Positions 8,470 through 27,164 of a stretch of 64,000 nucleotides of DNA are shown here, piece by piece. A model generated the notes under the pieces. The model searched no databases and was not told the origin of the DNA. It saw nothing but the letters and a program-made list of their open reading frames with translations. This DNA is from Microbacterium sp. KUDC0406 (GTDB lineage: Bacteria; Actinomycetota; Actinomycetes; Actinomycetales; Microbacteriaceae): the NCBI RefSeq assembly GCF_021582875.1, contig NZ_CP091138.1:2108001-2172000 (forward strand), written 5' to 3'. Each line of letters starts with the position of its first letter. Position 1 is the stretch's first letter. Made by a program: the position numbers and the translations under genes.

Positions 8470-9159
8470 TCAGTGCGCGCGCGACGCCGTCGCGCGGGTC
8501 GCCGTCACCAGGATGGGACGGTGGTCGCTGACCCCCTGTGGCAGGGTGTGCACGCTGTCGACCCGGAAGCCGACGGATGTCGCGAAGTCGTAGTGCCCGC
8601 GGAACACCCGGTACCGCGTGTACGTGCGCTCGTCGCTGAGGGTCAGCATGTAGCCGTGCTCGCGGATGGTCTGCCCCAGGTTCTCCTTGAACACGGGGTA
8701 GTTGTAGTCGCCCACCATCAGCACCGGCAGCCCGTGGCCCATCGTGTCGAGTTCGGCCAGCGCCGCGCGGATCTGCTCGCGCCGCAGCGAGTTCAGTGCG
8801 GTGAGGGGCGCCGCGTGGAACGACGCCGCGATGAACTCGTACCCGTCGTCGATGTCGTGCAGCCGCACGGCGACCACCCGCTCGTGCGCCGGCCGCGCGA
8901 TGCGATCGTGCAGGGACTTCTTCAGCCCGATCGTGCGCACGTCCTGAGCCCGGTACATGTCCGGACGGTAGAAGAGCGCGATGCCGAGCCGATTGCCCGC
9001 GGTGGCATGCGCGAGCGTCATGCCGCCGATGTCCTCCGGCAGCGCTGCGACATCCGCCTCCTGCAGGCAGAGCAGGTCGGGCGTGTGCTCGGCGACGAGC
9101 GCCTCGAGCTCGTGCGCGGCCGCATGCTTGCGCAGGTTGTAGGAGATGATCCTCATCAT
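8470..9159 (-). CDS. endonuclease/exonuclease/phosphatase-fold hydrolase
   Basis: Metal-dependent hydrolase fold of the EEP superfamily; the substrate cannot be told. 229 residues, starting MMRIISYNLRKH. The EEP signatures are present: SYNLR at the N-terminus, CLQEAD (metal-binding Glu, about residue 34), SFHAAPL, MVGDYNYP (catalytic Asp/Asn) and SDHRPILV (catalytic His). Its ATG overlaps the truA stop (ATGATGA at 9156-9159), so translation is probably coupled to truA. Confidence 0.88.
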   Translation of the reverse strand: MMRIISYNLRKHAAAHELEALVAEHTPDLLCLQEADVAALPEDIGGMTLAHATAGNRLGIALFYRPDMYRAQDVRTIGLKKSLHDRIARPAHERVVAVRLHDIDDGYEFIAASFHAAPLTALNSLRREQIRAALAELDTMGHGLPVLMVGDYNYPVFKENLGQTIREHGYMLTLSDERTYTRYRVFRGHYDFATSVGFRVDSVHTLPQGVSDHRPILVTATRATASRAH

Positions 9160-10056
9160 CCGTCGCCCCCGTCTTCCAGGTCGCTGAGCAACCCTGGGTC
9201 ACTGAGTCTGCCTGCGGGCAGGCTGCGGCGCCCGCGCGTCTGCTCGGCTCGGGCTGCCAGCAGTTCCTCTGCAGGATAACCGACCTCGGTGAGGCTCAGC
9301 CCGCGCGCGGCGAGCACCTTGAACGCGCTGGTGCGGGTGAGTTCGTCACGCAGCCGCACGACGTCGGCGACCTCGAGGCGCCCCTCCCCCACGGCCGCGC
9401 ATGCGCCCACCAGCGCGCGCACCATGCTGTGGCAGAACGCGTCGGCCTTGACCTCGGCGACGAGCACGCCGTCGTCGTCTCTGCGCCACCGGTAGTCGAG
9501 CAGCGTGCGGATGGTGGTCGCCTCGGCCCGCGGCTTGCAGTACGCCGCGAAGTCGTGCAGTCCGATCAGGGTCTGCGCCGTCGGCATCCATCGCTTCGGC
9601 GTCGAGAGCGCCCTTCAGTGCCGTCGTGTCGTGGCGGCGCATCGGATCGTAGCCGCTGGTCGCGTCGGCGAGCCGGTACCGGTACCGGCGCCACACCGCC
9701 GAGAACCGGGCGTCGAAGCCCTCGGCCGCGATCGACGTGCGGGTCACCGTGACATCCGGGTAGGCGCCGAGCGCGCCCCGCATCCGATGCGCGAGCGATC
9801 CGGCCGGGTCGTCCGCGGCACGGCCATGGCGCGACTGCAGCCTGGCGTACTGCGCGTCGTCGAGATCGACGTGCGCCACCTGACCGGACGCGTGCACTCC
9901 GGCATCCGTGCGGCCCGCGACCACGAGCTGCGCGTCCGAGCCGACGATGCGCGCCAGCGCGGCCTCGAGCGTGCCCTGCACCGTGCGCAGGCCCGGCTGC
10001 TTCGCCCAGCCCCGGAAGTGGGTGCCGTCATAGGCGATGTCGAGACGGATGCGCAC
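9156..10056 (-). CDS. truA: tRNA pseudouridine(38-40) synthase, frameshifted
   Basis: Isomerises uridines 38-40 in tRNA anticodon arms. The GTG start at 10056 gives VRIRLDIAYDGTHFRGWAKQ; a TACTCT -10 box six bases upstream supports a leaderless mRNA. The catalytic Asp is in AGRTDAGVHA. The C-terminal half (HDFAAYCKPR, FCHSMVRALVG) lies in another frame. The break is at about 9579-9583: GATGCCGACGGC reads correctly as DAAAQTLIGLHDF if the central base of CCGACGG is removed. The corrected length is 299 residues. The gene is conserved and nearly always intact, so a sequence error is likely. Confidence 0.9.
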
Positions 10057-10062
10057 CGTTCC

Positions 10063-10068
10063 AGAGTA
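10063..10068 (-). promoter_or_regulatory. -10 box of truA (leaderless)
   Basis: TACTCT on the minus strand, followed by six bases and the GTG start. Confidence 0.5.
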
Positions 10069-10095
10069 CGGCCCGGTGGGACTTCCCCTCCCCGC

Positions 10096-10154
10096 TTCGA
10101 ATCGCGCAACTTGCTGCTTCCGGCGGCGAAAGGCGGCAAGTTGCGCGATTCGAA
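10096..10154. repeat. family C palindrome (perfect 19-bp arms)
   Basis: TTCGAATCGCGCAACTTGC at 10096-10114 and its exact complement at 10136-10154, separated by 21 bp. A second member with the same TCGAATCGCGC outer arms is at 16061-16117. Lies between truA and the acyl-CoA ligase; may act as a terminator, but there is no T tract. Confidence 0.85.
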
Positions 10155-10163
10155 AGTCGGAGG

Positions 10164-11672
10164 CTAGGCGGCCAGCTCCGTCCGCAGCACGTGCTTCATC
10201 ACCTTGCCGGAAGGATTCCGCGGCAGCGCGTCGCGCACGATCAGCTCGCGCGGGATCTTGTACTTCGCGAGATGGTCGGCGAGGAACGCCCGCATATCGT
10301 CGAGCGACAGCTCGCCGGATGCCTCGACGACAGCCACCACGGTCTCGCCCCACTCCCCGTGCGGGCGTCCGACGATCGCGGCATCCGCGACGGACGGATG
10401 CTGCCGCAGCGCCTCCTCGACCTCGGGAGAGTAGACGTTCTCACCGCCGGTGATCACGACGTCCTTCAGCCGGTCGACGATGAACAGGTAGCCGTCGGCG
10501 TCGACGCGCGCGAGGTCGCCGGTGCGGTACCAGTCGCCGACGAACACGGCATCCGTCGCGGCGGCGTCGTTCAGGTACCCGGCCATCCGGGTCGCGGAGC
10601 GCATCCACAGCTCACCGGCCTCGTCCGCCGTGACGTCGGTGCCCTCGGCGTTCACGACGCGGATGTCGACGCCCGGCATGCCGCCGGCGCCGATCGACCC
10701 GGCCTTCTCGATCTGCTCGGCCGGGTACAGCGCCGACCCCACCGGGCCCATCTCGCTCATGCCGTAGACCTGGTAGAACGCATCGGTGCCGTATGCCTGC
10801 TGCAGCATGCGGACGGTCTCGGCGCCCATCGGCGCTCCGCCGTAGGCCCAGAGCCGCATCGACGAGAGGTCGAAGTCGGCGAGGCTCCTCCCGACGGAGG
10901 GCAGCACCTTCAGCGGCGCGAGATAGGCGATCGGCGCCCCGAAGAACGCCGTGACCCGGTGCTGCTGCACGGTCTGAAGGAAGTGCACCGGGTGGTACTC
11001 CTTCAGCAGCACGACCGTGCCGCCGAGGTACATCATCGACAGGAACCAGTTGTTCAGCGGTGAGGCGTGCCAGATCGGCATCGCGATGAGGAAACGGTCG
11101 TCGCGCTGCAGCCCGACCGCGGCGGTCGTGTACGCGGGCACGTTCGCGAGACCCGCGTGCGTGTGCAGGCATCCTTTCGGGCTGCTCGTGGTGCCCGAGG
11201 TGTAGAGCACCTGGGCGATGGCGTCGCCTTCGACCTCGACGCCGTCCCACTCCCCGGCTGCGGCGACGAGGGTGTCGAACTCACCCGTGCCGTCGTCGGC
11301 GATCGTCAGCACCCGTGCATCCGGAGCGCCCTCGCGCACCCTGTCCTCGAGATCGACGTCGGCGACGACGACCTTCAGCCCGGCGTGCGCGGCGACGTAG
11401 GCGACCTCGCGGGCGGTGAACTTGTGGTTGATCGGCACCAGTGCCGCGCCCGCGCGCCACAGGCCGAAGGCCGCGACGGCGAAGGCCGGCGTGTTGAAGG
11501 CCATCACGCCGACCCGGTCGCCGGGCTGCACGCCGGCCTCGCGGAACACCGTGGCGGCGCGGCGTGAGGCGGCCAGCAGCTGCTGGTAGTCGAGGGTGCC
11601 GAGGTCGGAGACGATCGCGGGCTTGTCGGGAAAGGTGCGGGCGGAGCGCTCCAGCATCCAGGTCAGGTTCAT
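10164..11672 (-). CDS. AMP-binding acyl-CoA ligase (fatty or aryl acid)
   Basis: Adenylate-forming enzyme that activates a carboxylic acid with ATP and CoA. The 502 residues have every family signature: P-loop YTSGTTSSPKGCLHTHAG (about residue 165), VYGMSEMG, WYRTGDLARVDADGYLFIVD, DRLKDVVITGGENVYSPEVE, and the catalytic Lys in NPSGKVMKH near the end. The start ATG at 11672 has GAGGACCC just before it. It is divergent from a TetR gene across two 16-bp operators, and the other TetR-side gene is an acyl-CoA dehydrogenase, so a fatty-acid substrate is the best guess. Confidence 0.92.
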   Translation of the reverse strand: MNLTWMLERSARTFPDKPAIVSDLGTLDYQQLLAASRRAATVFREAGVQPGDRVGVMAFNTPAFAVAAFGLWRAGAALVPINHKFTAREVAYVAAHAGLKVVVADVDLEDRVREGAPDARVLTIADDGTGEFDTLVAAAGEWDGVEVEGDAIAQVLYTSGTTSSPKGCLHTHAGLANVPAYTTAAVGLQRDDRFLIAMPIWHASPLNNWFLSMMYLGGTVVLLKEYHPVHFLQTVQQHRVTAFFGAPIAYLAPLKVLPSVGRSLADFDLSSMRLWAYGGAPMGAETVRMLQQAYGTDAFYQVYGMSEMGPVGSALYPAEQIEKAGSIGAGGMPGVDIRVVNAEGTDVTADEAGELWMRSATRMAGYLNDAAATDAVFVGDWYRTGDLARVDADGYLFIVDRLKDVVITGGENVYSPEVEEALRQHPSVADAAIVGRPHGEWGETVVAVVEASGELSLDDMRAFLADHLAKYKIPRELIVRDALPRNPSGKVMKHVLRTELAA

Positions 11673-11801: not shown

Positions 11802-12420
11802 ATGGCACAGCGTCGCGAAGCAGGGCGCCGGGAGGACCTCATCGAGGCCGCCACGGCGATCGTGCGGGATTCCGGGTTCGGAGCAGCGTCGGTGAAGGCC
11901 GTCACGGCGCGCGCCGGCATGAGCGCCGGGCTGCTGTACAGCTACGCGGACGGCGTGGACGACGTGCTCGCCGAGGTGTTCCGGCGCTGCGCCGGCACCG
12001 AGCTCGCGGCCGTCGACCAGGCCGTACTCGCCTCGAAGCGCACGGATGCCGACGGGCCGGCTGCTCGCGCTCATCGAGACCTTCGCCACCCGCGCGCTGC
12101 GCGGCGGACGCCTCGCCTGGGCGCTGCTGGGGGAACCGGTCGGCCGGGCGATCGACGAGGAGCGCCTCGCCTACCGCCGCAGCTACGCCGACATCCTCAC
12201 CGAGATCGTGGCACAGGGCGTGCGCGACGGATCGTTCGCCCCGCAGCATCCGGAGATCACCGCCGCGGGACTCGTCGGCGCGATCGGCGAGGCGCTCACC
12301 GGCCCGCTCACGCCGGTGAGCGCGGAGGAGGACGACCCGGATGCCGTCGTCGCGGCGATCTCCGAACTGTGCCTGCGCGCGGTCGGCGCGGTGCCCGAGC
12401 ATCTGGGCCCGAAAGTCTGA
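11802..12420 (+). CDS. TetR-family transcriptional regulator, frameshifted
   Basis: Probably represses the divergent acyl-CoA ligase and its own operon through the palindromes at 11721-11760. The ATG at 11802 follows AAGGAGCACGG. The N-terminal helix-turn-helix is EDLIEAATAIVRDSGFGAAS then VKAVTARAGMSAGLLYSYAD (about residues 10-55). The ligand domain continues in another frame from about 12050: GATGCCGACGGGC with one base removed reads TDAAGRLLALIETFATRALR. Corrected length 205 residues. The indel again sits inside CCGACGG. Confidence 0.88.
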
Positions 12421-12426
12421 GCCCCC

Positions 12427-12630
12427 GAGCCCCTGGGTCCCTGAGCCCCTGGGTCCCTGAGCCCCTGGGTCCCTGAGCCCCTGGGTCCCTGAGCCTGTCG
12501 AAGGGGCCGGCACGACGCTTCGACAGGCTCAGCGACCCAAATACGGCCGCAGACGCTTCGACAAGCTCAGCGACCCACCACTCGACCAGAGGCTCAGCGA
12601 CCCACCACTCGACCGCTGAACCCCTGGGCC
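12427..12630. repeat. 16-bp tandem repeats and family B (CTTCGACAGGCTCAGCGACCC) palindromes
   Basis: Four exact copies of GAGCCCCTGGGTCCCT (12427-12490), then GAGCCTGTCGAAG ... CTTCGACAGGCTC forming a hairpin (12491-12530), then three decaying family B copies (CGCTTCGACAAGCTCAGCGA and AGGCTCAGCGACCCACCACT). Family B recurs at 52648 and inside menB at 57547. No gene is present. Confidence 0.9.
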
Positions 12631-16131: not shown

Positions 16132-17112
16132 TCAGACGAACGCGGCGCCGTCCCACACGGCGTCGAGGTGGTCGGCGTAGGCGCTCTGCACGATCTGATC
16201 CCCCGTCCACACCAGAGCGAGCTCATCGCCGAGGCGACTCGCGCCCGGCAGCAGACCCGCCACCGCGACCATCCTCGCCCAGGCGTAGTCTCCGCGTGAC
16301 GGCGGCACGGCGGTGAGCGGCCGGCTGACGAACGGCGTGGCCGCAATCGCCTTCTCCAGCGCGAGCATGGTGACGGTGCCGATGCCCGCCTCGAGGAAGG
16401 CTCCGCCGACCGCATCCCACTTCAGCCCCACCCAGTCGGCGGACTCCGCCTCCGCAGTGCCGTCGGCGACGCGTACACCCACCCGGTAGCCGGCACCGGG
16501 GTCGGTGCTCGCCCTGCCGAGCACGATCGGATCGGTCTCGGGATCGGTGAGAGCGGCCGTCGGCGCGACCCACACCTCGCGGCCGAGGTACGGCAGCGGA
16601 TCGGGGGTCGGTCCGGTGCCTCCGGTCGGCGCCGGCAGCGCGGCGGGCGGCCCCCACAGCGGCAGATGCCCGGCGGCGGCGCGCACGTCGGCGACGGCCG
16701 CCTGCAGTCCCGCGGCCAGGTCCTGCCGCACGCCGACCGAGAGCGGTACGCCGTCGCCCGCCGGCGAGGGCAGCCGGTCGTTCGCGATCTGCACCAGCCG
16801 CAGCGGCGGCACCGTGCCGCCCGCTCCGTCATCCGCCGGCACGGATGCCGCCAGCCCGAGCGCGGCACCCAGCATGCCCTTGCACATGGTGGTCTCGCCC
16901 AGCTCGGTGAGCAGGTTCAGGTAGCCCCCGACCTCGGTGATGTTGCGCGGAGCGGGGATGCGCGACGGGATCACATCGCCCTGGGTCGCCAGGCGACGCA
17001 GCAGCATCGCCTGCGCCTGCTGGATCTCGGGGCCGGACGCCCCCTTGATGACGTCGGTCAGGGCGAGGACGAGTGCGTCGCCCGCCGCGTCCGAGACGGA
17101 TGGAGTGGACAT
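16132..17112 (-). CDS. hypothetical protein, partner of the large OmpA-domain protein
   Basis: I do not recognise a family. 326 residues from the ATG at 17112, seven bases after AAAGG; an earlier in-frame ATG at 17118 is too close to that site. No signal peptide or membrane segment is evident. The N-terminal half is helical and Ala/Leu-rich (ALTDVIKGASGPEIQQAQAM), with a proline-rich linker at about 175-195 (ALPAPTGGTGPTPDPLP), then a beta-rich C-terminal half with DWVGLKWDAVGGAFLEAG. It starts 25 bp after the stop of the large OmpA-domain gene, so the two are almost certainly one operon. Confidence 0.75.
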   Translation of the reverse strand: MSTPSVSDAAGDALVLALTDVIKGASGPEIQQAQAMLLRRLATQGDVIPSRIPAPRNITEVGGYLNLLTELGETTMCKGMLGAALGLAASVPADDGAGGTVPPLRLVQIANDRLPSPAGDGVPLSVGVRQDLAAGLQAAVADVRAAAGHLPLWGPPAALPAPTGGTGPTPDPLPYLGREVWVAPTAALTDPETDPIVLGRASTDPGAGYRVGVRVADGTAEAESADWVGLKWDAVGGAFLEAGIGTVTMLALEKAIAATPFVSRPLTAVPPSRGDYAWARMVAVAGLLPGASRLGDELALVWTGDQIVQSAYADHLDAVWDGAAFV

Positions 17113-17137
17113 CGTCATGCCTTTCTCTCGAATGCTC

Positions 17138-20100
17138 TCAGTACTGGAAGCTCATGTCGGCACGGCGCAGCCGCGGGTAGTCGCCCTCCGCGCCCGGGAG
17201 CACACCGCCCTCGGCCGTGCCGGCCGTGATGCCGTGCGCGTTGAGATACGCGGCGGTGTTCGTCGCGCGATCACGGGCGAGTGCGACGTTGTCGAAGCCC
17301 GCGGTGCCCTCGGGCGATGCGTAGCCGCGGACGACGGCACCGGTCGCACCGCCCGCCTTCACCTCGGCGATGATGAGATCCAGCCCCGCCTTCTGATCGT
17401 CCTCCAGCACGCGCTGCGCCTTCGCGAAGTAGATGGTGCGCTGCGCCGGCTGGGCGGGAGCGGGCTGCGGCGCGGGATCCGCCCCACCGCCGGTGCCGCC
17501 TCCGGTACCGCCGCCTCCGTTCGCCGGGCCCTCGGTGCCTCCGCTGCCGGCGCCGCCGGTGCCCTTGCCCTTGCCTCCGGACGAGTCCTTGTCGCCGGCA
17601 TCCTTGTCGCCGGCATCCTTCTTCTTGTCCGCCCCGTAGATCGATGCCGACGTCTCCATCGCCTTGATCGCCAGGTCCTTCGCGGCGCCGAGCGCGTCCT
17701 TGCGCGCGGATTCCGGCGGTGTCGAGCGTCTTGCCGGTGAGCGTCGCCAGATTGCCGGCGTTGGTGAGCGCGGCGATGTCGAAGCTCTTCTGCGCCTCCG
17801 CCGACTTGATCAGCGCGCCGGCCAGGGAGGTGTCGGCCGAGACCGGCGCCATCGAGAAGTTCTGGATCATCGGATTCATGCCGGTGAGGGCACTCGGACC
17901 GGTCAGCCCCGCGGTGAGCGAGCCCTGCGGCATCCCGACCTGGGCGATCTGCGTGGCCTCGTCGCCCGGAGAGTCCTGCCAGTTCCAGAACCGGGTGAGG
18001 TCGACCCGTTCCGCCGACGGGCAGTGCCCGAGCACGGCTTCGCCGAGCACGCCCTTGGTCGGCAGCGCGATCGTCGATCGTGGCGCCGAGAAGCCGTCGG
18101 TGTGGAACCGGGTCAGCGCGTCCTGGATCTGCCCGGTGGTCAGTCCGGCCTTCTTCACCGGCCGGATGCCGTGCTCATCGGGCTCGCCGTACTCGGCGGT
18201 CGCGTCGGTGATCGCCGCCGGGATCATGAAAGGCAGCACCATCGAGTTGCCGAAGTACCCCAGCACGTTGTTGGTGATGCAGCTGAGCAGCGGAACCGCC
18301 GGACGCGCTGTGCCGTCTTCGGCGGGCGGCAGGGTGATCTCGTACCGCTCCAGCATGACGGCCCGCTCCTCCGGAGTGAGCGAGGCGAAGACCGCGACGC
18401 TGCACGTCATGGTGTTGCGCATCACCCACTGCAGGGTCTTCTCGATCTCGAGCACGGAGGCGTACGAGAGCACGGGCGGCACGGTGCGCGCGGCGATCGG
18501 ATAGGTCATCGCCGGCAGCGCCGTCGATCCGCCGAACCTGTTGTCGACGAGCACGACCTGCGGCGTGGTCCCCGAGATCGACGCCACGAAGCTGGTCACC
18601 TGCGGACCGCCGATCTCGCGCTCCAGCCGGTCCGCGTCGTACGACCCCGTCTTCGACTGCTTCGCGGCCGCATCCTTCAGCGCCCCCTCCAGGGCCGAGC
18701 CGAGGCCGCCCAGCGTGATCTGCGCGAAGCCGAGGTCGGCGATCGCAGGCGGGGCGAAGTGGTAGTCCAGGCGACGCGTGCGGCGCGTGATCTCGAAGCC
18801 GGTGATGTCCTGCCGGGCGAACGACGGCGGCAGCGAGATCGTGGCCACCCTGGTCCTGCCGAGCACGTGGTTGGCGCGTGCCGCGCGGAGACGGCCGAAC
18901 AGGTCATCCTCCGTCGCCAGCGCGTCCTTCCCCGTCGGCAGCGTGTCCGAGACGGCGGTGCCGCTGAGCGGATAGGGCCCCACCCGCATCCCGCGCTTGC
19001 CGACGACGGTGACGAACAGGTCGTCGAAGTCGAGGAAGGTGCCGATCAGCGTGACGTCGAGCACGTCCGTCGCCGGCGCACCGGCGTCCGCCACCGAGGT
19101 GGTCGGGTCGGAGGCGAAGTCGGTGATCAGCGACAGGCCCCGGCGGTAGCGCGCCGGCACGACCCTGGTCAGGATGTCGGCATGGCCGAGCAGCCGCTCG
19201 TAGCGGGCGAGCACGTCATCACGGGTGGACGGGGCGTCGGTGAGCTTGGCCGGCTGGAACGCCGGCAGGAACCGGATCACGTCCAGCGGCACCTGGCACG
19301 TGAGCGTCACGCCCTCGCAGGCGGTGGTCACGTCGAACAGCCGCTGCACCTCCCAGTACTGCATGGTCAGCGCGCGGGTCTTGTTGTGGTTCGTGATGAC
19401 CTTGGTGGTGATCTCGGTCGACTCGGTCGCGGTGGCCAGCCGCATGGATGTCCGCGACGCCGAGCGACGTGCCGCCGCCTGGCGCTGCACGGCGGAGTGC
19501 GTCGACTGCGCGGCATCCGAGGTGCTGTTCCTGGCGCCGCTCATCCAGGTGTTCGTGTTGCCGCTGGTGCTCGATGTGCCGTAGCTGGTCGCGACGCCAC
19601 CGGCGGCGCATCCGAACGGGAACACGCCGCCACCGCCGGCCGCGGCCGCCACCGAGAACGAGTCCGCCTCGGTGTCGTAGTGCGAGCCGCCGGACGCGGA
19701 CTCCCGGAACGCGCTGGCGAAGGTCGCCGTCGCCGAGGTGTCATCGCGTTCGGCGAACGACATCGTCTCGGTCGATTCGAGCCTCTCGCTCTCGACGACC
19801 GAGGTCGACGCCGTGCGCTCCATGATCGCCATGCGCTGCTGCTCACCCGGTGCCAGCGGCAGCGAGTAGACCAGGTCGCCGAGCGCCAGGCCCAGCGGAG
19901 TCCAGCGCTGCGCGAGCGTGACCACGTAGCCGATCGACAGCGATCCTGCCAGCGGCACGGAGCCGTACGCGGTCTCGGTGGCCAGCCCGTCGCGGAAGGC
20001 GTCGATGCTGATGGGCCGGTCGACAGGCACCCGCTCGGCGAGGTGGAACTCCAGCTTCTCCAGGCCTCCGGCCAGCCGGGCCGCGGCGGAGTAGCCGCCG

Positions 20101-20887
20101 TAGAACGTGACGGGCCAGCGTGTGCGGCGCCCCTCGAGGATCCGCATCCGCAGGCTGGGCTGGCTCAGGCTCGGATCGGTGAGCCGGAAGAACACGCCGT
20201 ACGGGAAGCGGTCGCTGGACGCGTCGCGCCGGAACACCACCTGGCATTCGTCCTCGCCCACCGCCAGCGCCGGGATGGCGTGCTCCTCGGCAGGAGGCTC
20301 GAGGCCCGCGGCATCCGTCACCAGCTGCTGCAGCGCGGCGATCATCGCCATCGACAGTGCCGGCGCGGGGTCGGGCAGCGTGACGACGGGCAGCATGCCG
20401 CTCGGCTGCAGATTCTTCAGCGCGGCCTTGATGCGCTGCACGCCGACCGCGGAGGTCACCACCAGATCGGCGCCGAACGCGGTCGCGCGCGCCGCCGCCG
20501 GGATCGGGAGCACGAAGCTGCCGTCGTCGAGGGTCACTGTGGTGCCCGCCATGGCCTGTGCGGTCGAGGCGCCGTCGAGGTCGAGCCCCACCTGCACGCG
20601 CGCCGCGGACGACCCGTCCGGCTGCAGCAGCGTGCCCACCACCTGCGGCGGCGCCTGGTTGTCGGTGGGAACGAGATCCTGCATCGTCCAGACCAGCGAG
20701 TCGAGTGCCCGGAACATCCGCTGATCGCTGTCGGCCTGCCTCTCGAGGTACTCCTCCGCGAGTACATCCACCATCGGCGAGTCGCTCTGCCAGAGCGGCG
20801 AGTCGGGGCGATCGCGACCGGGATGTCCTGCCCCTCACCGCCTTTCGCGCGAGCGGAGAACATCGAGTTCGTGTTGAAGATCGGCAT
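17138..20887 (-). CDS. large protein of unknown function with C-terminal OmpA-like domain, two frame breaks
   Basis: About 1,249 residues once two indels are corrected. The ATG at 20887 has a strong GGGGAGG site and reads MPIFNTNSMFSARAKGGEGQ. The frame breaks at 20805-20808 (a G run one base short; P-x-DSPLWQSDSPMVDVLAEEY follows) and at about 17713-17716 (CCGCCGG; the corrected reading is DTAESARKDALGAAK). No signal peptide. In order: a beta-sandwich-like region (about 60-160), a region with LAPGEQQRMAIMERT, a long Ser/Thr/Ala/Gly-rich segment, the motif TNHNKTRALTMQYWEVQRLF, then a Lys/Asp/Gly linker, and an OmpA-like domain (IYFAKAQRVLEDD, VVRGYASPEGT, NVALARDRATNTAAYL). OmpA domains usually bind peptidoglycan. 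Function unknown. Confidence 0.8.
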
Positions 20888-21504: not shown

Positions 21505-21530
21505 GCCTGATCGTGGCGCCGTGATCAGGC
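21505..21530. terminator. inverted repeat at the 3' end of hepT
   Basis: GCCTGATC (21505-21512) pairs with GATCAGGC (21523-21530) across a 10-nt loop. It overlaps the hepT stop codon; terminator role is a guess because there is no T tract. Confidence 0.35.
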
Positions 21531-21878
21531 GCCGGAGGGCCCTTCCCCGAGCAGGAGACCCAGATAGGTGACCAGCTCCGGCACCCGCTCGGAAGCGGCC
21601 GCCCAGACGACTCCGTCGTCCACCACCGCATAGCCGTGCGCGAGCACGTTGCGGAGCCCGACGATGCGATGAAGATCCGGAACTCCGTCGGCCGTCTCCG
21701 CGTCTACCCGGCGCAGGTTGTTCAGGGCCTCTCCGACGATCTCGAGCTGGCGCTCCACGGCAGAGCGACGGAGGGCATCCGAACGATATCCGGTCTCATC
21801 AAGACCACTGATGAACTCCGTCACACGCTGCGCCGCTTCCCGGGCATCCCAGAGGTATGCCGCAGCCTCAGGCTGCAT
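21525..21878 (-). CDS. hepT: HepT-like (DUF86) HEPN toxin
   Basis: HEPN-domain RNase toxin of a HEPN-MNT pair. 117 residues from the ATG at 21878, which lies inside the end of the antitoxin gene and is preceded by GAGGAAC. The helical HEPN fold carries the active motif RNVLAHGY (about residues 75-82), matching RX4HXY. In characterised HepT-MntA systems the Tyr of this motif is AMPylated by the antitoxin to silence the toxin. Confidence 0.88.
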   Translation of the reverse strand: MQPEAAAYLWDAREAAQRVTEFISGLDETGYRSDALRRSAVERQLEIVGEALNNLRRVDAETADGVPDLHRIVGLRNVLAHGYAVVDDGVVWAAASERVPELVTYLGLLLGEGPSGA

Positions 21879-22173
21879 AAAGTTCCTCCGCGGATGCGAG
21901 GGCTCGATCGCGGAAGTACGGATTGCGGACCGCATCCGTCATCACCAGATCAACTGTGCGCCCGAACACGCGCTCGAGATCCTCCTTCAGACCGAAGTAG
22001 GCGTCGAACTTGTCCTTCGTCTCGGGAGCCAGGTCGACGAGCAGATCGATGTCGCTCCGTTCGGGATCGAAGTCGTCGGTGACTGCCGACCCGAAGACCC
22101 GAAGACGGCGAACACCATGAGCTCGTGCGACGCGCTCGAGCTCCTCCGCGTTCACTTCGATCATCAGGCCCAT
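21868..22173 (-). CDS. mntA: MntA-like nucleotidyltransferase antitoxin
   Basis: Minimal nucleotidyltransferase, 101 residues. Motif LRVFGSAVTDDFDPERSDID: GS, then ten residues, then DXD with the third acidic residue in LLVDL, the catalytic set for AMP transfer. The start at 22173 is supported by TACACT six bases upstream (leaderless). Its last 11 bases overlap hepT, the standard antitoxin-first order. It probably neutralises HepT by AMPylating its HGY tyrosine (family knowledge). Confidence 0.88.
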   Translation of the reverse strand: MGLMIEVNAEELERVARAHGVRRLRVFGSAVTDDFDPERSDIDLLVDLAPETKDKFDAYFGLKEDLERVFGRTVDLVMTDAVRNPYFRDRALASAEELYAA

Positions 22174-22456: not shown

Positions 22457-24001
22457 TCAGGAAATCGGCCCGACTCCGTCATGACGGCCCGCGTTCGCCT
22501 TCATCCAGGGCAGCGGGTCGAACTGAACGCCGTTGCGGAGCAGCTCGAAGTGCAGGTGCGCACCGTAGGAATGACCGGTGTTCCCGACGAGCCCGACGAT
22601 GTCGCCGACCTTCACGTGCTGTCCGGTCTGCACGCGCATCGAGCCGTGCAGCATGTGCGAGTAGTGGCTCGTGATGACCTTGCCGTCGATCATGTGATCG
22701 ATGTAGACGGTGACGCCGTATCCGCCGCCGTTCTCGGTCGCCTTGCGCACGACGCCGTCGGCGATCGCCTGGATCGGCGCGCCTTCTCCGGGCACGAGGT
22801 CGATGCCGGCGTGCAGGCGTCCCCAGCGAGAGCCGTACGGCGAGCTCATGGCCACGCCGACGGCGAAGGGCCACTGAATCGCCGCCGTGGTGTCGTTGGT
22901 GTACAGGCTGGTGGAGTACTTGATGCCCTCTTCAGCCGCGAGGTCGGCCATCGACATCGACGTGAACCCGCCTTCGCGGGCGGACTGCGCGTTCTCGACG
23001 TCGGATGACGCGACGTACGCCTGGATGTCGTCGGTGCCGAGCTTCTGCTGCTGCGTTTCCGCCGCAGTGAGCGAAGTCAGCGACTGGGCGTCCTGGCCCT
23101 GAGCCGCGGCCACCGCCTCGGAGGGCAGCGTCATCGAGACGAGCATGAGGCCAGCGACGCCCATCACACCGAGCGTGGCGCCGGCGGTGGCCACCTTGCG
23201 CCCCAGGCGACGACCGCGTCGCGGTGCACGGTGCGCGGTCGCCGAGTTCTCGACGGACGGCTCCGGCTCGGCGGCGGATGCCCGGGCAGCGGGCTCGACC
23301 TGCTCGTCGAGATCGTCCGCGCTGAAGCCGAAAGCCGCGGCAGCTGCGGTGAATGCGTCGGCGGCGGACTCGGCAGCGGATGCCTCGGAGTCGGTGGCGG
23401 CATCCGGGGCGACGGGCTCCTCGGCGGCGGCCTGGGCCTCGGCGGCGGACTCGGCCTCGGCGGCGGACTCGGCCGCAGCCTGGGCCTCGGCGGCGGGCTC
23501 GGCCTTGGCGGCGGGCTCGGCCGCGGCGGCGGGCTCGGCCTCGGCTGCGGCCGGTTCCTCGACGACGAGACGCTCGGTCTTCAGCTCGGCTGCGGCGACG
23601 GGGGCGATCGGCTCGGCCTCGACGACCGGCTCGGCGACGATGGCCGGCGCCGCGGCGGGCTCCCCGTCGACGACGGTCTCGGGCACGACGGACTGAGCGG
23701 CGACCAGGGGCCGGCCGGTGCCGGCATCCGCCATCGACTCGCGCCAGGGCGCGGCATCCGATGCGACGGGCTGCGCGATTCCCGCGCGACGGGCGCGCCG
23801 GCCGACGAACGGCTGCGCGGCAGCCGGAGCGGACGGCGTCTGCACGACCGGGACCTCGGCGGTCTGGCGCTCACGGGCCGCACGGCGGGAGGCCGGAGCG
23901 GCCGACGACGTCACTGCGACAGCGGACTCTGCGGGCACCGCACGGCGTCGGTCGGACCGGCGCTCGGGGGCAGAGCCGGTCTGGGGGGCATCGAAGGGCA
24001 A
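22457..24001 (-). CDS. M23 (LytM-type) peptidase with long Ala/Glu-rich N-terminal region
   Basis: Probable cell-wall endopeptidase or its regulator. The start is uncertain: the frame is open to 24265, but this would overlap the upstream gene, and I choose TTG at 24001, giving a 514-residue protein. Cytoplasmic N-terminal part is Ala/Glu/Pro-rich with repeated AEPAAEAE-like units (about 120-260), then RRGRRLGRK, a membrane segment (about 300-320) and an extracellular M23 domain. Zinc ligands are in RLHAGIDLVPG (HxxxD) and GAHLHFELL (HxH), with SHYSHM before. Two direct repeats upstream may control it. Confidence 0.85.
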   Translation of the reverse strand: MPFDAPQTGSAPERRSDRRRAVPAESAVAVTSSAAPASRRAARERQTAEVPVVQTPSAPAAAQPFVGRRARRAGIAQPVASDAAPWRESMADAGTGRPLVAAQSVVPETVVDGEPAAAPAIVAEPVVEAEPIAPVAAAELKTERLVVEEPAAAEAEPAAAAEPAAKAEPAAEAQAAAESAAEAESAAEAQAAAEEPVAPDAATDSEASAAESAADAFTAAAAAFGFSADDLDEQVEPAARASAAEPEPSVENSATAHRAPRRGRRLGRKVATAGATLGVMGVAGLMLVSMTLPSEAVAAAQGQDAQSLTSLTAAETQQQKLGTDDIQAYVASSDVENAQSAREGGFTSMSMADLAAEEGIKYSTSLYTNDTTAAIQWPFAVGVAMSSPYGSRWGRLHAGIDLVPGEGAPIQAIADGVVRKATENGGGYGVTVYIDHMIDGKVITSHYSHMLHGSMRVQTGQHVKVGDIVGLVGNTGHSYGAHLHFELLRNGVQFDPLPWMKANAGRHDGVGPIS

Positions 24002-24040
24002 AGCGGAATCTCTCGGTCGCGCGTCAAGCAGGGGGGCTAT

Positions 24041-24076
24041 CGCTCGGGTAAACGAAAGTAACGATCGGGTAAACGA
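24041..24076 (-). promoter_or_regulatory. 21-bp-spaced direct repeats upstream of the M23 peptidase
   Basis: CGCTCGGGTAAACGA (24041-24055) and CGATCGGGTAAACGA (24062-24076), spaced exactly 21 bp. On the minus strand they give three CGTT(T)AC half-sites about one helical turn apart, the layout expected for an OmpR-type response regulator. In related actinobacteria MtrA controls M23-type genes through GTTAC-like repeats; assignment to MtrA is inference. Confidence 0.5.
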
Positions 24077-24137
24077 TACCTGCTTCCGCCTGGGAACGCC
24101 ATGGGCGTCGGCGAGAAAGTTGATCGTCCTGACGAAA

Positions 24138-24926
24138 TCAGTTCTCGGCGAGCAGGGCTCCGAGCCGGGCGTGCACCTCGCGCCCTCCGGCGAACAGCAG
24201 CGGACGGCGGGAATCCAGTTCGATGCGAGACACCGCTCCCCCGGCTTCGGAGACGAGGATCGCACCGGCCGCGAAGTCCCACGCGTTCAGGCCGCGCTCG
24301 AAGAACCCGTCCAGCCGCCCGGCCGCTACGTACGACAGGTCGATCGCGGCCGACCCCATCCGGCGCAGGTCCCGGGCCATGGTCATCACCCGTCGCACCG
24401 TCGCCAGGTCGCCGTCGTGCGTGGCCGGGTCGTACCCGAATCCGGTCGCCAGCAGTGCTCCTGCAGGAATCTCGGTCGTGACGGCGAGGCGCGCCCCGTC
24501 GTGCCAGGCTCCCTCGCCGCGGACCGCTGTGAACAGCTCGCCGAGCGCCGGAGCGCAGACCGCGCCGGCCACGCCGTTCCACGACTCGGGCTCGGGCGTG
24601 CCCTCGACCACGGCGATGCTCACCGAGTACGCCGGGATGCCGTAGCTGTAGTTGACCGTCCCGTCGATAGGGTCGACGACCCAGGTGAAGCCGCTCGTGC
24701 CCCCGGCCGCACCGGACTCCTCGCCGAGGAAGCCGTCATCGGGACGCTCCGTGGCGAGCCGGTCTCTGATCAGCGCCTCGACCTCGCGGTCGGCGTCGGT
24801 CACGATGTCGGCGAGCGTCGACTTGGTCGCGGCGAGATGCACGCCCTCGCGACGGCGACGCGCGGCGAGCTCACCCGCTTCAAGGGCGATCTCCGCGGCG
24901 AGCGCGCCGAGTTCGATGTCGGTCAT
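24138..24926 (-). CDS. inositol monophosphatase family phosphatase
   Basis: SuhB/ImpA-type Mg2+-dependent phosphatase, 262 residues from the ATG at 24926 with GGAGGACCC directly upstream. Motifs: LADIVTDADREVE, GEESGAAGG (metal-binding Glu), WVVDPIDGTVNYSYGIP (the DPIDGT signature) and LNAWDFAAGAILVSEAGG (WD motif). Substrates in this family include inositol phosphate, histidinol phosphate and nucleotide phosphates; the sequence does not decide between them. Confidence 0.93.
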   Translation of the reverse strand: MTDIELGALAAEIALEAGELAARRRREGVHLAATKSTLADIVTDADREVEALIRDRLATERPDDGFLGEESGAAGGTSGFTWVVDPIDGTVNYSYGIPAYSVSIAVVEGTPEPESWNGVAGAVCAPALGELFTAVRGEGAWHDGARLAVTTEIPAGALLATGFGYDPATHDGDLATVRRVMTMARDLRRMGSAAIDLSYVAAGRLDGFFERGLNAWDFAAGAILVSEAGGAVSRIELDSRRPLLFAGGREVHARLGALLAEN

Positions 24927-26261: not shown

Positions 26262-27164
26262 TTAGGCCGCGAGGGCCAGGTTCTGGTTCATGATGGTCTC
26301 GAATTCGACCGGCGTCAAACGGCCCAGACGTGCTTGCCGACGGCGCCGATGGTAGGTCCGTTCGATCCAGGTCACGATCGCGATCCGCAGCTCTTCCCGG
26401 GTGGCCCAGGACCGCCGATTGAGGACATTCTTTTGCAGCAGCGCGAAGAAGCTCTCCATCGCGGCGTTATCACCGGCCGCGCCGACTCGGCCCATCGAGC
26501 CGACCATACGGTGACGAGCCAGCACCCGGATGACCTTCCGGGAACGGAACTGACTGCCCCTATCGCTATGCAGCACGCAACCGGCGACGTCACCGCGCAG
26601 CGCGGCGGCGTTGTTGATCGCGTTCACGACCAGCCGGGACTTCATCCGCGAGTCGATCGAGTAGCCGACGATCTTGCCCGAGAACACGTCCTTGACCGCG
26701 CAGAGGTAGAGTTTGCCCTCGCCGGTGCGGTGCTCGGTGATGTCGGTCAGCCAGAGCCGGTTCCGGCTGTCAGCGGTGAACTCGTGTCGGACCCGCCCGT
26801 CCTCGTCAGTCACCGCGCACAGGTCGTCGTGGACCGGCGGTCCGGGCCTCTTGCCGTTACGTCCCTTCTTCTTCCCGAACGCCGACCACCAGCCGTTCGC
26901 TGACGTGATCCTCCACGCGGTCCGGTCCGCCATCGGTTCCCCGGCGTCGCGGGCCTCGTCGGCCAGGAGACGATGCCCGAACTCAGGATCGTCACGGTGC
27001 GCGTCGAACAGCGCGTTTGCCCGATACGCCTCCACCAGCTCAGCATTCGTGATGGGGTCGGCCAGCCACCGGTAGTAGGGCTGGCGGGAGAGCTTGAGGA
27101 CCCGGCACGTCACTGCGACGGGGATCCCGTCGGCAGCGAGCTCTGTCACGAGCGGGTATGTCAT
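26262..27164 (-). CDS. IS3-family transposase OrfB (DDE integrase core)
   Basis: 300 residues. After an HTH_21-like region (AHRDDPEFGHRLLADEARDA) the catalytic core has D in LWLTDITEH, D in VLHSDRGSQFRS and E in AAGDNAAMESFF, spaced as in IS3 transposases (D-D-35-E). The ATG overlaps the OrfA stop (ATGA), but the preceding G GGA AAA heptamer points to production as an OrfAB fusion by -1 frameshifting. Confidence 0.95.
   Translation of the reverse strand: MTYPLVTELAADGIPVAVTCRVLKLSRQPYYRWLADPITNAELVEAYRANALFDAHRDDPEFGHRLLADEARDAGEPMADRTAWRITSANGWWSAFGKKKGRNGKRPGPPVHDDLCAVTDEDGRVRHEFTADSRNRLWLTDITEHRTGEGKLYLCAVKDVFSGKIVGYSIDSRMKSRLVVNAINNAAALRGDVAGCVLHSDRGSQFRSRKVIRVLARHRMVGSMGRVGAAGDNAAMESFFALLQKNVLNRRSWATREELRIAIVTWIERTYHRRRRQARLGRLTPVEFETIMNQNLALAA

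Follow-up and report, generated by a model that had tools for sequence, protein, structure and literature searches.

The stretch of DNA analyzed here (the window) comprises 64,000 nucleotides of the 3.61-Mb single-contig genome of Microbacterium sp. KUDC0406, and the subject of the analysis is a pair of adjoining minus-strand genes at 16132–20887, both of which are real and conserved; open reading frames are abbreviated ORFs below. Gene 2, which encodes a partner protein of 326 residues (16132–17112, minus strand, as are all parts of the pair described below; identical to the listed protein P0122), starts 25 bases past gene 1 and is intact, with a GAAAGG element ahead of the start codons. The coordinates, the strand, the two-gene layout and the partner as given in an initial annotation of the window were all correct. 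Its reading of gene 1 as a single protein of ~1,249 residues, in contrast, had to be revised, as the gene is not one open frame: two frameshifts, at about 20.80 and 17.71 kb, place the start (at 20887) and the C-terminal part (ORF 17138–17659) in one frame and the core (ORF 17271–20774) in another, and they had stayed hidden because they cancel.

Two frameshifts would be expected if gene 1 were a decayed pseudogene in this strain. However, the relative P0002 (Microbacterium sp. NPDC057659, 1246 residues, 91% identical) is open through both sites, gene 2 is intact, and two further genes of the window show the same kind of split, truA (9346–10353 and 9159–9614, both pieces matching PF01416) and a TetR-family regulator (11802–12476 and 12046–12417). 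As these genes are split like gene 1, indel errors in the assembly are likely; base-calling errors are thus a likelier cause of the frameshifts than decay, and we consider a pseudogene very unlikely.

Three-frame translation against the intact P0002 places the beginning of gene 1 (MPIFNTNSMFSARAKGGEGQDIPVAIAP..., in a frame that differs from that of the core) at 20775–20887. The conserved core that follows, ~1,018 residues of ORF 17271–20774, spans 17715–20774 and is defined by its 672 homologues and their alignments. The structure prediction proposed in the initial annotation was carried out with AlphaFold2 for the core (mean predicted local distance difference test score, pLDDT, of 74) and for gene 2 (88). 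In the core model, a predicted CnaB/transthyretin-like beta domain (core residues 40–136; 20367–20657) is followed by a Ser/Thr/Gly-rich segment (residues 331–443; 19446–19784; pLDDT <50), a putative hairpin between two long predicted beta strands, and further on by a predicted PLAT/C2-like beta-sandwich (residues 562–763; 18486–19091), for which there was no match in Pfam. Two signatures are evident from the alignment of 92 clade A rows (the clades are defined below). The first, TNHNKTRALTMQYWEVQRLF (residues 461–480; 19335–19394), lies after the Ser/Thr/Gly-rich center just as had been described and has an identity of 90% or more at 14 of 20 positions; the second, IALPTKGVLGEAVLGHCPSAERVDLTRFWNWQDSP (residues 902–936; 17967–18071), reaches this level at 29 of 35 positions. 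The C-terminal part (17138–17714, in the frame of ORF 17138–17659 and delimited by comparison with P0002) includes a Gly-rich linker and the OmpA-like stretch noted initially (17219–17431), which is present but scores 24.3 bits against PF00691, under the Pfam cut-off of 27.2; of the residues typical of the peptidoglycan-binding motif, the Arg seems to be there and the Asp is probably not in place. The absence of a signal peptide also held: by a simple hydropathy rule rather than a trained predictor (mean above 2 in a 12-residue window within the first 45 residues), none of the 92 clade A rows has a hydrophobic N-terminal stretch. The window's row in this check begins at the Met of the core, and no hydrophobic stretch was seen by eye at the upstream start.

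Among 8000 scored candidates, 672 core homologues were found at E ≤ 0.001, and the names of the 120 listed include Actinomycetota, Pseudomonadota, Terriglobia and archaea (Bathyarchaeota, Methanoregulaceae), with the distant bacterial and archaeal rows at ~41% identity to the core. Neither the core nor the partner matches any model of Pfam, NCBIfam or PHROGs beyond chance-level or accessory-domain hits, and the PADLOC models match neither gene, nor P0112 or L053, only the protein L060 giving a weak PbeC match (E = 0.0035). The unit therefore stays unrecognized, as the initial annotation had it, and no clear homology to a characterized family that would explain both proteins emerged from these libraries. 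A description of the family was not found in the open-access literature, to which the search was confined. The family is large and unnamed, and it matches no described family searched.

A genome scan confirmed 109 stretches, the best 80 of which were kept and represent 77 distinct loci. Clade A (L002–L051, 50 loci) and clade B (L052–L078, 27 loci, whose alignments fall mostly within P0002 residues 300–980) are clearly related in a profile comparison (probability 100, E = 4e-66); the first signature has the clade B counterpart NxNHxHxLTxxYYEV, the second a related stretch, and the family-wide forms center on NxNxxxALTxxYxEV and GVxxExxLGxCxxxExxDxTRFWxW. Gene 2 directly follows gene 1 in 42 of the 50 fetched clade A loci, the contigs of the remaining eight stopping inside gene 1, and the two genes diverge in parallel; the clade B core has no partner gene. 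The spread is patchy, with gene 2 matched in only one of 59 sampled genomes of the genus, the window's own, and named Microbacterium strains elsewhere also holding the genes. A tree of 47 clade A proteins requires, on starred branches, at least six label changes for Actinomycetota and at least seven for Pseudomonadota, and pairs proteins from Nitrospira and Actinotalea, both with a neprosin peptidase upstream; the label changes and this pairing point to horizontal movement, without proving it.

The neighborhoods of homologues, likewise proposed for study at the outset, confirmed the pairing with gene 2 and revealed recurrent peptidase genes; no recurrent tail-like genes appeared among the neighbors that were identified. 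A neprosin-family peptidase gene lies just upstream of gene 1 in L011, L016, L039, L079 and L086 (three phyla, including two Novosphingobium plasmids) and is a possible third member of the module. In L004, L024, L029 and L034, an M64 peptidase gene and an unmatched companion adjoin gene 2 (by Pfam for three, by clustering only for L034). Other neighbors look mixed, and most neighbor clusters received no identification.

On this conserved scaffold, domains are exchanged. In three clade B proteins that were inspected, a recognizable domain lies between the two signatures: an RCC1-like propeller (L052), a tectonin propeller (L053, under the cut-off) and a PA-IL lectin (L055), at the position occupied in the window protein by the predicted PLAT-like domain. 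The 120 listed clade A proteins include nine with OmpA (PF00691, precomputed), ten with TIG and one with HhH, and the 27 clade B proteins (at E 0.001) have GH25, OmpA, DUF2272, DUF922, HhH and RCC1 once each and PA-IL and tectonin twice each. In 120 listed clade B proteins, PF01471 (PG_binding_1) and PF02563 (Poly_export) occur in two each, and PF01510 (Amidase_2), PF06037 (DUF922) and PF11579 (DUF3238) in one each. Most listed members carry none of these accessory domains. TIG domains also occur in gene 2 of some members (L035; P0184, P0193 and P0208).

These modules bear directly on where the protein acts. The CnaB-like, TIG, OmpA and peptidoglycan-binding modules that match family members are common in adhesins and wall proteins, and with the TIG domains of gene 2 they make a structural or adhesive envelope protein a close rival: it would anchor the producer or bind its own wall, with no attack on membranes, and gene 2 would be an assembly partner. 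The missing signal peptide argues against this role (by the hydropathy rule; no predictor was applied to sortase signals or transmembrane segments), as do the lysozyme and amidase domains of a few relatives, which are degradative, and on balance we find it somewhat unlikely. Another rival is a protein that stays in the cytosol, as a scaffold or an enzyme, and puts its lectin-like and propeller folds to intracellular use; the leaderless N termini of all 92 rows would favor it, along with three cysteines that are invariant in a 16-row alignment and the presence of the family in archaea. Yet a cytosolic location leaves little purpose for wall hydrolase or peptidoglycan-binding domains, and the patchy distribution within the genus also speaks against such a protein, which we judge improbable.

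The initial annotation had proposed either a structural component of a surface or injection-type apparatus or a stress-released wall-binding protein. Wall binding by a leaderless protein fits, as some family members have accessory domains of surface and wall types; an injection apparatus is not supported. In favor of a role in a contractile injection system or phage tail, as cargo or as spike, the protein is leaderless, its relatives' lysozyme- and amidase-type end domains are reminiscent of cell-wall effectors, and the contractile sheath family PF04984 was matched in 15 of 34 family-bearing genomes (the window's included in the sample) versus 3 of 14 controls. However, PF04984, the only sheath family tested, has no match at E 1e-5 in the window's own genome, and ORF clustering showed no recurrent tail-like genes among the identified neighbors. 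IMG/VR likewise yielded no confirmed viral relative, whether of clade A, of clade B or of the partner, and 50,697 phage records gave no clade A match and a single weak one for clade B. An injection or tail component is accordingly, in our estimation, highly unlikely.

Together, these results lead us to favor, tentatively, a horizontally moving two-gene module that encodes a leaderless surface- and wall-docking protein that probably disturbs a membrane, together with a dedicated partner. Leaderless, patchily spread, linked to a partner and equipped with surface- and wall-binding modules, the gene 1 protein most likely works extracellularly, on envelopes. The gene 1 scaffold would display an exchangeable surface-recognition domain (PLAT/C2-like here, a propeller or lectin elsewhere) and an exchangeable C-terminal domain (OmpA-like here; lysozyme, amidase, peptidoglycan-binding or TIG elsewhere). 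Released by lysis or by some non-Sec route, the protein would dock on the cell surface and wall and plausibly disturb the membrane via the Ser/Thr/Gly segment held between its two long beta strands. The gene 2 product would serve as chaperone, inhibitor or second subunit, and a neprosin or M64 peptidase gene would travel along in certain lineages.

That the Ser/Thr/Gly segment inserts into a membrane is no more than a suggestion, because aerolysin-like matches are weak and the periodicity is ambiguous. An aerolysin-like Foldseek match reached E = 5e-4 with a template modeling score of 0.07 on the model and a root-mean-square deviation of 25. Averaged over each alignment, hydrophobic periodicity is strand-like at residues 345–378 (5.1 vs 2.3 for helix) and helix-like in stretches of 399–461 (2.1–3.4 vs 1.1–1.4) and in the arms of its clade B equivalent (e.g. 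3.9 vs 1.5), in a test that is weak, as the confident strands 280–307 and 469–496 also read helix-leaning. The segment may thus form a hairpin, be it helical, beta or convertible, or no hairpin at all, and the beta-barrel reading is putative.

Several other features lie near members of the family. Upstream of gene 1 by ~0.6 kb, on the same strand, is a HepT-like/nucleotidyltransferase pair (21525–22173; PF01934 and PF01909) that resembles a HEPN-MNT toxin–antitoxin pair. The window also contains a 602-residue ORF (22457–24265) with an Ala/Glu-rich low-complexity middle and an M23 peptidase domain at its end, and a transposase-like ORF with an integrase core domain (26262–27164). On plasmids of Psychrobacter and the archaeon Haladaptatus (L083 and L084), the clade B gene has a Fic-family gene nearby, in opposite orientation.

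Hundreds of predicted proteins, those of Actinomycetota and of archaea among them, share this scaffold of ~1,000 residues at ~41% identity, with a constant partner in one clade, and the lack of a family model for it in the searched libraries marks a gap in the protein map. Should the scaffold act on cell surfaces, its naturally exchanged domains (lectin, propeller, PLAT and wall types) would reveal how microbes re-aim one carrier between hosts. A bolder proposal, which we regard as doubtful, is that the family founds an undescribed class of proteins, common to Bacteria and Archaea, that lack a leader and perforate membranes, in which one scaffold takes plug-in recognition and wall-binding or wall-cutting domains, sometimes with a peptidase gene, and in one clade an obligate partner restrains or completes it.

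Among known systems, the Pal/OmpA peptidoglycan-associated proteins share the C-terminal OmpA-like stretch, but in this family OmpA is optional, and in the window protein it is under the cut-off and no N-terminal lipoprotein or membrane signal was seen. The predicted PLAT/C2-like domain invites comparison with the PLAT/LH2 and C2-like membrane-binding domains of lipoxygenase, pancreatic lipase and the C-terminal domain of clostridial alpha-toxin, from which gene 1 differs by a helical insertion (core residues 622–703) and by having no recognized catalytic domain. Aerolysin-type beta pore-forming proteins, including the lectin-bearing Dln1, are similar in that long predicted beta strands flank a Ser/Thr-rich segment and a recognition domain is attached, and certain members likewise have no signal peptide; the gene 1 protein, however, is far larger, with no sequence match and a very weak fold match, exchangeable wall domains and a partner gene. 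Finally, the family resembles polymorphic toxins and chimerolectins in its patchy spread and in having a conserved carrier on which recognition and end domains are exchanged. It differs in that no known carrier, pre-toxin or immunity gene was recognized and in that only clade A has the constant partner downstream.
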